Notes under the pieces: model-generated
Told to the model about the DNA's origin: nothing
Database searches by the model: none
The model's input: the letters and a program-made list of their open reading frames with translations, nothing else
Program-made: the position numbers and the translations under genes
Shown: in pieces, positions 3,527 through 7,146 of the stretch
Numbering within the stretch: position 1 is the stretch's first letter
Layout: every line of letters starts with the position of its first letter
Source: Opitutaceae bacterium
GTDB lineage: Bacteria; Verrucomicrobiota; Verrucomicrobiae; Opitutales; Opitutaceae
DNA length: 7,688 nucleotides
Direction: 5' to 3'
Assembly (NCBI GenBank): GCA_031266495.1
Contig: JAISAX010000248.1
Location: 1-7,688 of the forward strand

Positions 3527-3628
3527 GCGGCATCATACGTGGCCCGGGCCGCGGCCGATGGCGGAGCCGCGGGCGTTGAAAAAACGATTGTCGCAAAAAA
3601 ACGAATACAGACTGTACGCGGGAAAGCC
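3527..3628. other. GC-rich palindromic convergent intergenic stretch
   Basis: Between the lyase stop and repeat copy A there is no gene. GGCCCGGGCC (3541-3550) and GGCCGCGGCC (3547-3556) are overlapping 10-bp palindromes. GCCGCGGGC (3566-3574) can pair back on this region with a bulge, forming a strong GC hairpin. No T run follows on the plus strand, so a standard intrinsic terminator for the lyase gene cannot be claimed. Confidence 0.4.
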
Positions 3629-3749
3629 GAAGGAGTCAGGCCGAAGAATGTTAATTCTTGTGTTCCATCGTTGTAATTTGGAATGCAGGTACTCTTTCTC
3701 CTTCATGCTGTTATCGTCTAGAATTAACATTCTTCGGCCTGACCCCTTC
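3629..3749. mobile_element. MITE-like palindromic element, copy A
   Basis: A 121-bp non-coding element with 29-bp terminal inverted repeats. The right arm reads (reverse complement) GAAGGGGTCAGGCCGAAGAA then TGTTAATTC, and the left arm differs by one base (GGAGTC for GGGGTC). Beyond the arms, flanking bases continue to pair (GCGGGAAAGCC at 3618-3628 with GCTTTTCCCGC at 3751-3761, allowing one gap). The 63-bp centre is not symmetric. Copy B at 6772-6890 is nearly identical and copy C at 4921-4970 is a half copy. It sits between the convergent lyase and slipin genes, 22 bases past the slipin stop, so it could also end transcription. Terminal repeats without a transposase suggest a miniature element moved in trans; a RAYT/REP-type or DDE-type source cannot be chosen. 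Confidence 0.75.
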
Positions 3750-3770
3750 AGCTTTTCCCGCTGCCTTGCC

Positions 3771-4892: not shown

Positions 4893-4924
4893 GCGCAGCC
4901 GAACGGGGGCGCAGCCGAACGGGG
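4893..4924. repeat. 16-bp tandem duplication GCGCAGCCGAACGGGG
   Basis: Two exact copies, 4893-4908 and 4909-4924, lie head to tail. The last four bases of the second copy are the first four bases (GGGG) of element copy C, so the duplication sits exactly at the element's outer edge. The GAACGGGG motif also borders copy B (CCCCGTTC at 6887-6894, inverted), suggesting it belongs to the element's outer boundary or its preferred context. Confidence 0.85.
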
Positions 4925-4970
4925 TCAGGCCGAAGAATATTAATTTTAGACGATAACAGCATGAAGGAGA
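4921..4970. mobile_element. Truncated, inverted half-copy (C) of the MITE-like element
   Basis: These 50 bases match the reverse complement of 6841-6890 (copy B) at 48 of 50 positions and the corresponding part of copy A equally well. The match starts with the GGGGTCAGGCC terminus and runs through CGATAACAGCATGAAGGAGA, then stops abruptly; the other terminal arm is missing. It is therefore a solo end left by a deletion or a partial insertion, in the opposite orientation to copies A and B. Confidence 0.8.
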
Positions 4971-5031
4971 GAGGCCGGCAAAACGGCGTGACTCCCTCGG
5001 CCTTTTGGCGGAAACAACGTGACGGCTCATT

Positions 5032-5087
5032 CTTTCCTTGTCCATAGGGAAAGGATTGAGCAATCCTTTCCCTATGGACAAGGAAAG
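5032..5087. promoter_or_regulatory. 56-bp near-perfect palindrome covering the ATPase start codon
   Basis: Bases 5032-5058 are the exact reverse complement of 5061-5087: 27 bp with no mismatch and a two-base centre (AG, 5059-5060). The right arm contains the ATPase start, CCTATGGACAAGGAAAG, with ATG at 5074-5076. The left arm carries the same start on the minus strand (ATG at 5043-5045 read leftward, giving MDKER). In RNA the arms would form a very stable hairpin burying the start codon, unless transcription begins inside the palindrome. As DNA it is a potential cruciform or binding site. The symmetry is certain; the role in translation control is inferred. Confidence 0.75.
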
Positions 5088-6372
5088 CTTGAAATATGTT
5101 CTCACCCAGTCAACGAACCGCAAACTCCCGGAAACCACCCCGCGCACTCTGAAATTACCCCTGAACCTGAACAAAATCGTGACCCTCGTCGGCATCCGGC
5201 GCAGCGGAAAAACCTGGCTGCTCTACGAAACCATGCGCCGCCTGGAATCCGGAGGCGTCGCACGTCAACAAATGATCCACCTCAATTTCGAAGACGACCG
5301 CCTGTTCCCGATCCGGCTCGAAGAACTGGACATGATTCTCCGCGCCCACGAGGAGTTGTATCCAGATTTCTCGGACAAAACGAGGCATCTCTTTTTTGAC
5401 GAAATCCAGAACGTGTCCGGTTGGGAAACGTATGTCCGACGGCTGTATGACAACGAGGACGTTCGCATTTTTGTCACCGGATCCTCCTCGCATTTGTTGT
5501 CCCGCGAGCTGGCGACGGGATTGCGCGGACGCAGCATCTCGTTTGAAGTTTTTCCGTTCTCGTTCGCCGAGTTCCTGACGTTTCGCGGGATTCGCCATGT
5601 GCCGTATTCCCGCGCCTCGGAGAGCCGTTTGGTGGCGGCGCTGGAGGATTATCTGGCGACGGGCGGATTGCCGGAGCTCGTTCCGGCGGAACCGGAACTG
5701 CGCCCACGCATTCTCAAGGAGTATGTGGACCTGGTTTTTTACCGGGATTTGGTGGATCGTTACAAGGTATCGAATCCGCTAGTGTTGCGCCTGTTGCTCA
5801 AGCACTGTCTTGCGCAGCCGGCGACGTTGCTCAGCGTCCACAAGCTTTACCACGATTTTCGTTCGCAGGGGTTCGCGCTCTCGAAGGACTCGCTTTACCA
5901 ATACCTCGGGTATCTTGAAGAGTCGTATGTGTTGTTCACGTTGCCGGTGGCGGAGCGGTCGTTGCGCAAGCGGGCAATGCAACCGAAGAAATTGCACGCG
6001 ATGGATTGGGCGTTGGGTTATCCGTTTGTGGCGGAAAAAAACATCGATGTCGGGCGAAAACTGGAAAGCGCGGTGTTTTTGCACTGGCGGCGAAGGCGCG
6101 AGGATTTGGCATGGATGTCGGGCGAGCAGCGTGAGATCGATCTTGTGTTGAATGACGATTCGCCGGAAACGCTCGTCAATGTCGCGTGGTCGGTGGAATC
6201 GCCTGCCACGTGGGCGCGTGAAATCGCCGCGCTCGAATGGGCCGGGAAAACACATCCCGACGCGGAACGCGTCCTGGTCGCGCACGAACTGCCATTGGGT
6301 CGCGCCGCCGCGTCCTACCCCCCCCCCCCCGGTGTTCGTTTGGTGGAGGCGTGGCGTTATTTGCTGGAATAA
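5074..6372 (+). CDS. AAA_14/DUF4143-family ATPase
   Basis: A 432-residue protein from ATG 5074. Walker A is GIRRSGKT (40-47), the GxRRxGKT/S form typical of AAA_14 proteins. Walker B is HLFFDEIQNV with Asp109-Glu110, followed by the GWETYVRRLYD and VTGSSSHLLS sensor region and GRSISFEVFPFSFAEFL. The C-terminal DUF4143 part contains LYQYLGYLEESYVLF (274-288), a WRRRREDLAW segment, GEQREIDLVL (350-359) and VNVAWSV...TWAREIAALEW, matching the EID and xxVxxS...T..RE..AL pattern of the family. Function in the family is poorly known; a stand-alone cytosolic ATPase with a nuclease-fold-like tail is the usual description. An upstream TTG (5038) would add 12 residues but lies inside the palindrome. 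The start codon is in a 27-bp-arm palindrome, a C13 tract encodes PPPP 15 codons before the end, and the stop overlaps a long inverted repeat. The middle to 3' part is more G-ending in codon use than the C-ending first part. Confidence 0.9.
   Translation: MDKESLKYVLTQSTNRKLPETTPRTLKLPLNLNKIVTLVGIRRSGKTWLLYETMRRLESGGVARQQMIHLNFEDDRLFPIRLEELDMILRAHEELYPDFSDKTRHLFFDEIQNVSGWETYVRRLYDNEDVRIFVTGSSSHLLSRELATGLRGRSISFEVFPFSFAEFLTFRGIRHVPYSRASESRLVAALEDYLATGGLPELVPAEPELRPRILKEYVDLVFYRDLVDRYKVSNPLVLRLLLKHCLAQPATLLSVHKLYHDFRSQGFALSKDSLYQYLGYLEESYVLFTLPVAERSLRKRAMQPKKLHAMDWALGYPFVAEKNIDVGRKLESAVFLHWRRRREDLAWMSGEQREIDLVLNDDSPETLVNVAWSVESPATWAREIAALEWAGKTHPDAERVLVAHELPLGRAAASYPPPPGVRLVEAWRYLLE
6318..6330. 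repeat. C13 homopolymer inside the ATPase 3' coding end
   Basis: Thirteen C residues encode the end of a Tyr codon and four prolines, just before GVRLVEAWRYLLE and the stop. At this length the frame gives a family-like C-terminus. One extra C would replace the last 13 residues with a different tail ending at 6382, and two extra would read into the downstream inverted repeat. Tracts of this kind change length by replication slippage. Confidence 0.9.
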
Positions 6373-6537
6373 GGAACTGTAATGAAAGAAACAGAGCAAA
6401 GATGCGCCGGGATTGAAGAGCGAGCCAAGGAGCTGACGAGGGAGTTTACCGGATTGTGAATAAATGACCGGGTCAGCGACGCTGGCTCGCTCTTCAAGAC
6501 CAGGCAAATTTGCTCTGTTTATTTCAGTACAGTTCCT
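6372..6537. repeat. 166-bp imperfect inverted repeat fused to the ATPase stop codon
   Basis: The left arm 6372-6437 and right arm 6472-6537 are inverted copies with about 80 percent agreement by eye and two single-base gaps. The best blocks are AGGAACTGTA, AAACAGAGCAAA, TTGAAGAGCGAGCCA and GCTGAC. A 34-base centre (6438-6471) separates them. The first base of the element is the last base of the ATPase TAA. The left arm contains a 25-codon open frame (6382-6459, MKETEQRCAGIEERAKEL...), which in the inverted right arm is broken by TAA, so coding is doubtful. It may be a miniature mobile element distinct from the A/B/C family, or a very long 3' hairpin stabilising or terminating the ATPase mRNA. 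Confidence 0.75.
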
Positions 6538-6771
6538 ATGGGCAACGACTCGCGCAAACGACGGCTTGCCTTGTCCGACACCTTCACTCCACACCATGCC
6601 CTCATTTTTTGCGCCCCTCGCCTCTCCCCCGCCGGCCCCCCGTTCGTCGATTCTGTTTCAGAGCGTCGAAGAACGCAGGGCGCCGGGAACAACACCGCGG
6701 CACAGGCATGATTTTTGGCAGCTCGAACGGGGGCGGAACGGTAGTTTTGAATTGGATACTGAGAGAAAACC
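6538..6771. other. Intergenic stretch without recognisable content
   Basis: Between the 166-bp inverted repeat and element copy B there is no gene with family-like content, no RNA gene and no clear promoter. C-rich segments (for example near 6627-6645) and GAACGGGGGCGGAACGG at 6725-6741 are present. The latter resembles the GAACGGGG motif bordering the other element copies. Confidence 0.4.
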
Positions 6772-6890
6772 GAAGGGGTCAGGCCGAAGAATGTTAATTC
6801 TTGTGTTCCATCGTTGTAGTTTGGGAATGCGGGTACTCTTTCTCCTTCATGCTGTTATCGTATAAAATTAACATTCTTCGGCCTGACCCC
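6772..6890. mobile_element. MITE-like palindromic element, copy B
   Basis: The same element as copy A and in the same orientation. Perfect 25-bp terminal inverted repeats (6775-6799 and 6866-6890, GGGGTCAGGCCGAAGAATG then TTAATT) enclose a 66-bp centre. The centre differs from copy A at only a few bases, including one extra G near 6824 that breaks the short internal frame MKEKEYLHSK seen on the minus strand of copy A. No target-site duplication is obvious. It lies in a long gap between the rightward ATPase and the leftward RraA-family gene. Confidence 0.78.
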
Positions 6891-6912
6891 GTTCGCCCTC
6901 CCGCGGGAACGG

Positions 6913-7010: not shown

Positions 7011-7023
7011 CCCCCCCCCCCCC
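7011..7023. repeat. C13 homopolymer, intergenic
   Basis: Thirteen C residues in the non-coding stretch after the REP-like hairpin. No gene boundary is close, so slippage here would probably be silent. Confidence 0.9.
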
Positions 7024-7135: not shown

Positions 7136-7146
7136 GGGGGGGGGGG
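7136..7146. repeat. G11 homopolymer, intergenic
   Basis: Eleven G residues on the plus strand, the only long tract in this orientation, about 150 bases beyond the stop codon of the leftward RraA-family gene. Confidence 0.9.

Follow-up and report, generated by a model that had tools for sequence, protein, structure and literature searches.

The perfect palindrome over the start codon of a PDC-S01-type ATPase gene is best explained as a pair of DNA operators that would be bound by the gene's own product and would make its expression self-limiting. We put the probability of this overall reading, which is drawn from sequence comparison, at about two in three. Its parts differ in strength: the palindrome very likely represents operators placed on the -35 element and on the transcription start (+1), and binding of both by the ATPase itself, through a putative DNA-reading domain, is probable. 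The transcript start, operator binding, self-binding and repression are all predicted features. PDC-S01, a very common candidate virus-defence gene, may in this way control itself. Paired-operator regulation is a known kind of control; what appears to be new is its recurrence as a promoter layout of PDC-S01, with self-regulation as the leading, predicted step.

The window, by which we mean the whole 7,688-nucleotide stretch analysed here, carries the palindrome at 5032-5087 (no strand assigned). An inverted-repeat search returned arms at 5032-5058 and 5061-5087 that match at 27/27 pairs around the two-base centre AG, exactly as the first-pass annotation of this DNA had described, and the arms lengthen to 32 bp at 94% pairing. 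That annotation had equated the right arm with the ATG plus the first four codons; the arm does contain the ATG (5074-5076), followed by the next three codons and two further bases. Each half of the palindrome holds an inner dyad, CTTTCC-N10-GGAAAG. Operator-like dyad 1 (CTTTCC-TTGTCCATAG-GGAAAG) lies at 5032-5053 with its centre at 5042.5, and operator-like dyad 2 (CTTTCC-CTATGGACAA-GGAAAG), which contains the start codon, lies at 5066-5087 with its centre at 5076.5, 34 bp away; neither is assigned a strand. Two like dyads side by side always yield a quasipalindrome. A dispersed repeat had also been considered, and no second copy was found within the scope covered: the left-arm sequence occurs at a single place in the window, in both orientations and with up to three mismatches (0 expected from 200 shuffles), and plasmid and phage collections gave no DNA match to 5000-5120. 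Rfam and tRNA scans of the whole window gave no match.

The gene itself (5074-6372, forward strand, ATG start) encodes 432 amino acids with Pfam matches to PF13173 (AAA_14; E 5e-36) and then PF13635 (DUF4143; E 3e-12). Residues 26-431 match the PADLOC profile PDLC04787, a PDC-S01 model, at E 2.1e-93, and six more PDC-S01 models match; by these profiles the gene is PDC-S01, a candidate defence ATPase. The description of PDC-S01 as AAA_14 followed by DUF4143 is our own and does not come from PADLOC output. Searches with the ATPase against NCBIfam, and against sequences of solved structures at E up to 1, returned no match. The source gene caller starts the protein five residues later, at TTG 5089. 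We favour ATG 5074 because 115 of the 120 best homologs (of 1159 at E ≤0.001) have an MxKExLKYV-like sequence there; these 120 are 64-71% identical to the window protein, except for one that is the window's own protein at 100%.

PDC-S01 is a single-gene phage-defence candidate of PADLOC. One survey reports that it ranks fourth in frequency among the defences of prokaryotes and has been transferred between domains several times; it also states that many PDCs show no tie to defence islands and that validation is pending for most of them (PMC12988326). A rumen survey lists it as the most frequent individual locus (PMC13356809). Proximity to defence genes underlies the list of such candidates but does not define membership. 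The neighbours of this copy that have Pfam matches (Alginate_lyase, N_methyl/SBP_bac_10, Band_7 and RraA-like) are not defence genes; the stretch available spans 7.7 kb, and the PADLOC scan covered the ATPase. The flanking Band_7 protein shares 92% identity with one of Ereboglobus sp. PH5-5, which makes the host probably a member of the Opitutaceae close to Ereboglobus. A class-level search for an empty site in a close relative of the host gave only Band_7 relatives, at 78% and 71%. As a separate observation, a distant homolog (28%) on the Arcobacter cloacae plasmid pACLO (L142, 1399-2658) lies between cas3 and cas4.

Paired dyads are frequent, but not universal, at the starts of PDC-S01 homologs. 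The locus set comprised 138 sequences (137 loci and the window) with 134 tblastn hits, of which 8 were skipped for want of a start or for a short 5' side and 15 were dropped as near duplicates, leaving 111 homologs including the window. Controls were mechanically called ORFs of at least 150 amino acids from the same loci, not verified genes. In stretches of equal length, strong dyads (score at least 7) were present at 43.2% of the 111 homolog starts, compared with 7.3% of 2220 dinucleotide shuffles and 9.9% of 484 control ORF starts. The internal-repeat and joint-score tests used homolog stretches of 130-132 nt against control stretches of 115 nt, a difference that slightly favours the homologs: internal repeats scoring at least 9 were found in 59/111 homologs, 49 of them at a spacing of 32-34 bp, and in 58/484 controls, 6 of them at that spacing, while the joint score exceeded the 95th percentile of 200 controls in 69/111 homologs, 62 of which had the 32-34 bp spacing. 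With a joint score above 22 and a spacing of 32-34 as the pair criterion, 49/111 homologs fall outside it. Grouped by identity to the window protein, pairs were scored in 3/3 homologs at 60% or more (window included), 2/6 at 44-60%, 2/10 at 40-44%, 34/50 at 36-40%, 20/41 at 30-36% and 1/1 below 30%.

The cleanest test of the spacing picked site 2 by palindromicity alone; a matching dyad then lay 32-34 bp upstream in 47/91 homologs compared with 2/270 control ORF starts (Fisher p 6e-31), and six other 3-bp spacing windows gave 1-7/91 homologs and 2-7/270 controls. This test replaced a within-locus pairing permutation (0/10000), which we discarded as circular, its sites having been chosen partly by similarity. 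Later loci, L139-L172, a set that was not de-duplicated, supplied 33 usable loci out of 34 and 23 with a good site 2; 10/23 had the matching dyad at 32-34 bp and other windows held 0-2. Without L139-L143, which had been inspected beforehand, the count was 9/18. In the same later loci 13/23 fail the spacing test and 10/33 are without a strong site 2. By eye, two similar repeats precede the gene in two homologs of this later set (L141, from a Lactobacillus gasseri plasmid, at 29% identity, and L143, from a Methanomethylovorans plasmid, at 26%), but both fail the 32-34 test.

The 62 pair-positive loci are spread widely. Their titles include Nitrospirae, Planctomycetota, Chlamydiae, Bacteroidetes, Omnitrophica, KSB1, Elusimicrobia, Hydrogenobaculum, Chlorobium, Riflebacteria, Aminicenantes, Desulfobacteraceae, Arcobacter and Alphaproteobacteria, together with the archaeal Diapherotrites, Archaeoglobales and Methanosarcinales; the records are mostly MAGs, and single taxon titles may be wrong. 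Several loci from a phylum search around G244, a genome whose own locus (L057) is titled Omnitrophica, have TTCTCATTGACAATGAGAAC-type dyads with an inner TTGACA. A homolog from a cultured strain, on a plasmid of the hot-spring isolate Calditerrivibrio nitroreducens DSM 19672 (L137), has two dyads 34 bp apart, the second of them on the start codon. The gene travels in this layout without a widely shared neighbour, no neighbour family occurring in more than 4/111 loci except for a cluster of AAA-ATPase-like neighbours (14 loci). As a side observation, in those 14/111 loci a second, related-looking AAA ATPase gene lies within 3 kb of the homolog.

These distributions bear on whether the operators might instead be sites of some other regulator, encoded by the host. 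The more alike two of the proteins are, the more alike are their half-sites (Mantel r 0.415 over 63 loci, 0/2000 permutations), a signal that can reflect shared ancestry and base composition. Column by column, coupling between protein residues and half-sites was not significant (best column r 0.24, at residue 219, against a permutation 95% level of 0.249, with every third column sampled), which leaves room for a host regulator; averaged over blocks, the coupling peaks at residues 265-288. A regulator supplied by each host fits poorly with a layout that accompanies the gene in many phyla. The dyad-2 pattern of L129, one of the two nearest relatives with DNA, is TTTCCTT-N4-7-AAGGAAA; G675 (5.4 Mb), the one genome with an exact match, has it at a single place, the start of this gene. 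In G965 the gene's own dyad reads TTTCCTC...AAGGAAA and the exact pattern is absent, and under a looser pattern every other place in G675 and G965 needs three mismatches. In G239 and G244, whose genes have other half-sites, the looser pattern gave 7 and 8 places at 2-3 mismatches, about as many as its reversed control (6 and 8). On this evidence we regard a host regulator as unlikely, and the gene's own product remains the preferred ligand.

The first-pass annotation had listed a binding site among several options, and it is this option that the family data favour, both through the dyad pairs at 32-34 bp and through their position on the promoter in part of the set. In 24 loci, the window included, the centre of site 2 falls between -1 and +2.5 relative to the first base of the start codon (the on-start class). 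Averaged over this class and measured back from the site-2 centre, the -10 score peaks at exactly 14 bp and the -35 score at exactly 37 bp, giving a 17-bp spacer, and the mean -35 falls within dyad 1. Hexamers with at least 4/6 matches to TATAAT start 18-12 bp before the site-2 centre in 21/24 on-start loci, compared with 7-14/24 in five other stretches, and TTGACA-like hexamers lie over dyad 1 in 20/24, compared with 3-9 in three other stretches. SD-like 4-mers precede the start in 0/24 on-start loci and in 120/484 controls (Fisher p 0.002). Because the -10 ends about 6-9 bases before the start codon, transcripts of the on-start loci are predicted to be leaderless, with their 5' end at the start codon. 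A looser promoter scan of all 111 homologs placed the -10 of the best promoter at -17 to -11 in 47, compared with 46/484 controls. An indirect check came from reading upstream sequence as codons: 19 of the 120 listed homologs have an in-frame 5' extension of at least five residues, with Tyr (a TAY codon) at -4 in 19/19 and Phe at -2 in 18/19, the pattern that would be expected from a -10 of the form TAYNNN followed by a TTTCC arm. The window has Asn (AAT) instead. The extension of P0013, one of the nearest homologs and represented by its protein sequence, encodes an inner repeat of a similar kind.

The remaining 38 pair-positive loci, whose spacing is again 32-34, have site 2 ahead of the start codon and form an upstream class. 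Here an SD-like 4-mer is present in 15/38, position -9 beats -14 for the -10 score and -4 beats -37 for the -35 score, and TTGACA-like hexamers over dyad 1 (12/38) are no commoner than elsewhere (13-15/38). The case for operators on a promoter is accordingly strong for the on-start loci, the window among them, and weaker elsewhere.

In the window the candidate promoter that fits the family profile is modest. Its putative -35, TTGTCC (5038-5043, forward strand), stands 18 bp before a weak candidate -10, AATCCT (5062-5067, forward strand); the pair scores 5.0, second best of the 190 bases scanned. A rival candidate -10, CATTCT (5028-5033, forward strand), paired with a -35 TTGGCG over an N17 spacer, scores best by a small margin (5.4) and would start transcription near 5040, within the left arm. 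The best promoter scores 10.8 in L131 and 6.7 in L129, and L129 has a similar CATTCT candidate with a lower score.

Which of these promoters is used matters for the proposal that an RNA hairpin hides the start codon and gates translation, either in a structure-dependent manner or as protection against read-through. Hairpins that mask a start codon are familiar from RNA thermometers and the expression platforms of riboswitches, and the window resembles them in having its start codon inside a strong potential stem. The fold of 5000-5120 is very stable, at -57.5 kcal/mol compared with -26.9 +/- 3.6 for 200 shuffles (z -8.6); a transcript from the one weak window promoter that starts near 5040 would keep about 19 bp of the stem, and promoter placement is poor in the 38 loci of the upstream class. 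The likeness ends with the predicted leaderless transcript, which would be without the left arm, and with the lack of an Rfam match. In the on-start loci dyad 1 coincides with the -35 and the predicted transcript does not include it; none of the 24 has an SD-like 4-mer. Across the 62 pair loci the two dyads are equally palindromic (0.825 for dyad 1, 0.818 for dyad 2), and G.T makes up 14/79 mismatches in dyad 2 and 19/76 in dyad 1, where 15% is expected, with no clear enrichment in dyad 2. Finally, the 32-34 bp spacing between dyads stays fixed while the distance to the start codon varies. An RNA gate is thus unlikely for the family, where the earlier suggestion of translation gating is opposed by the position of dyad 1 before the predicted transcript start. 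For the window copy such gating is still possible because its two best promoters score nearly alike and one starts inside the left arm. Taken as a whole, we consider the hairpin explanation quite improbable, somewhat more so than a host regulator.

The operator-pair reading is also consistent with the nearest relatives with DNA, L129 and L131 (67% and 69% identity). Both carry TTTCCTT-type dyads at the same 34-bp spacing as the window, with TATCTA and TATAGT between the dyads and dyad 2 over an ATG or GTG, and the left flank of the window is common to L129. The first-pass annotation had suggested a foldback left by duplication or transposition, to which the presence of both sites in these two relatives and the shared left flank are opposed. 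Relatives lacking the left arm, which it had named as evidence against itself, are absent from this nearest pair; of six relatives at 45-50% identity, L132 and L135 pass the pair criterion and L091, L092, L113 and L122 fail it.

What sets the window apart is the exactness of the mirror. Folded back on itself it pairs at 27/28 positions, compared with 10-22 (of 27-28 pairs) in the other 23 on-start loci. The earlier remark that so exact an inversion of a gene start is unusual therefore applies to the exactness, unique among the 24 on-start loci, and not to dyads over the start codon, which recur in the family. We suggest, tentatively and at somewhat less than even odds, that the exact mirror arose by template-switch correction of a quasipalindrome: two operators with the same half-site would have been turned into one exact mirror, with some loss of the -10, so that the weakened -10 (AATCCT) may be the cost of the exact mirror. 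Three reports describe quasipalindrome template switching as making imperfect inverted repeats more exact (PMC7202029, PMC8604942, PMC8794818). The process that perfects imperfect repeats is known, whereas its operation in the window is suggested by one outlier. The same outlying exactness, against 10-22/28 pairs elsewhere in the class, could be taken as a sign of an assembly or amplification artefact. The left site nevertheless appears to be native, since the left flank and dyad 1 resemble those of L129 and the 34-bp spacing is common to both nearest relatives. In addition, fold-back chimeras usually give much longer arms. An artefact is accordingly a very improbable source of the mirror.

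Under the preferred reading, dyad 1 would occupy the -35 element and dyad 2 the transcription start. Because the predicted +1 is the start codon, the start codon would lie inside the operator: an operator centred on +1 would cover the ATG and write the first codons, ATGGAyAAGGAAA being read as MDKE. The ATPase would bind the dyads through its putative winged-helix domain and, once enough product had been made, would shut off its own promoter. The outcome would be an expression unit that is complete in itself and self-limiting, which would suit a gene passing from host to host. The proposed DNA reader is residues 235-290 (5776-5943, forward strand), which we infer to be a winged helix from a fold model with mean pLDDT 94.9 (helices 235-247, 255-264 and 271-283; strands 251-253 and 287-290). 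Structural alignments with this model reach about residue 320. A first fold model, with mean pLDDT 71, was set aside together with its structural matches.

The fold matches include ORC1/Cdc6 initiators, and this admits a different role for the dyads, in which they are processed rather than read, either recognized by the ATPase together with its nuclease-like C-terminal domain or serving as an initiator- or iteron-type element for mobility or self-marking. Homologs on 24 plasmid records, all below 60% identity, would suit such a role; viral contigs yielded no confirmed relative of the ATPase. The on-start dyads, however, sit on the -35 and +1 of a promoter, as expected for regulation, and we think processing of the dyads very improbable.

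A parallel to operator-mediated self-control is AbiE, in which the AbiEi antitoxin is reported to bind inverted repeats in the promoter and to exert negative autoregulation of the defence locus (PMC7319586). Both promoters carry inverted repeats; in AbiE these are bound by a protein that the locus itself encodes (PMC7319586), and the same is proposed for PDC-S01. The two differ in that AbiE is a toxin-antitoxin pair, whereas the repressor proposed here is the AAA ATPase itself, and in that the PDC-S01 sites are 33 +/- 1 bp apart, with the second covering the start codon in the on-start class. Judged by titles and the beginnings of abstracts, literature on COG1373, DUF4143, PDC-S01 and leaderless or autoregulated inverted-repeat promoters gave no account of a PDC-S01 promoter or operator layout, in a search that most subscription papers lay outside. 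The PADLOC server paper makes no mention of PDC.

The recurrent layout offers a handle on the possible control of PDC-S01. Wherever a member carries it, the layout predicts a DNA-binding specificity, a transcript start and self-repression, predictions testable with the protein and 60 bp of upstream sequence. The layout would explain start codons that lie within palindromes in part of the PDC-S01 family, and it carries a warning that an operator, and not protein function, may dictate the first residues of such proteins. A more far-reaching version, which we regard as doubtful on present sequence data, is that PDC-S01 is a portable cassette that brings along a leaderless promoter of its own, enclosed by two operators that the ATPase itself reads. 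Infection would lift self-repression, for example when the ATPase is drawn to other DNA or changes its nucleotide state. Dyads on -35 and +1, 33 bp apart, would serve bacteria and archaea alike, half-sites would drift with the protein, and the +1 operator would dictate the first residues.

Several further features of the window were noted. Two MITE/REP-like copies with inverted ends (GGGGTCAGGCCGAAGAATGTTAATT) at 3620-3758 and 6765-6905 are 94-95% identical in their aligned parts, and a third, partial copy (4896-4973) lies just upstream of the palindrome. Beyond the gene, a pair of 34-nt inverted arms (88%) at 6372-6405 and 6504-6537, 98 nt apart, begins with the final base of the ATPase stop codon. 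By eye, this 6372-6537 element shows another inverted repeat between the arms, and it appears to be a second MITE-like element. Close to its 3' end, the ATPase coding region contains a run of 13 C (6318-6330), and tracts of 11-14 C or G occur at four more places in the window, 40-53, 2329-2342, 7011-7023 and 7136-7146; such runs are possible slippage (phase variation) sites or points of sequencing weakness. At 423-1538, an apparent single secreted protein, which we take to be PEP-CTERM-like, is split by one in-frame stop at 738-740.
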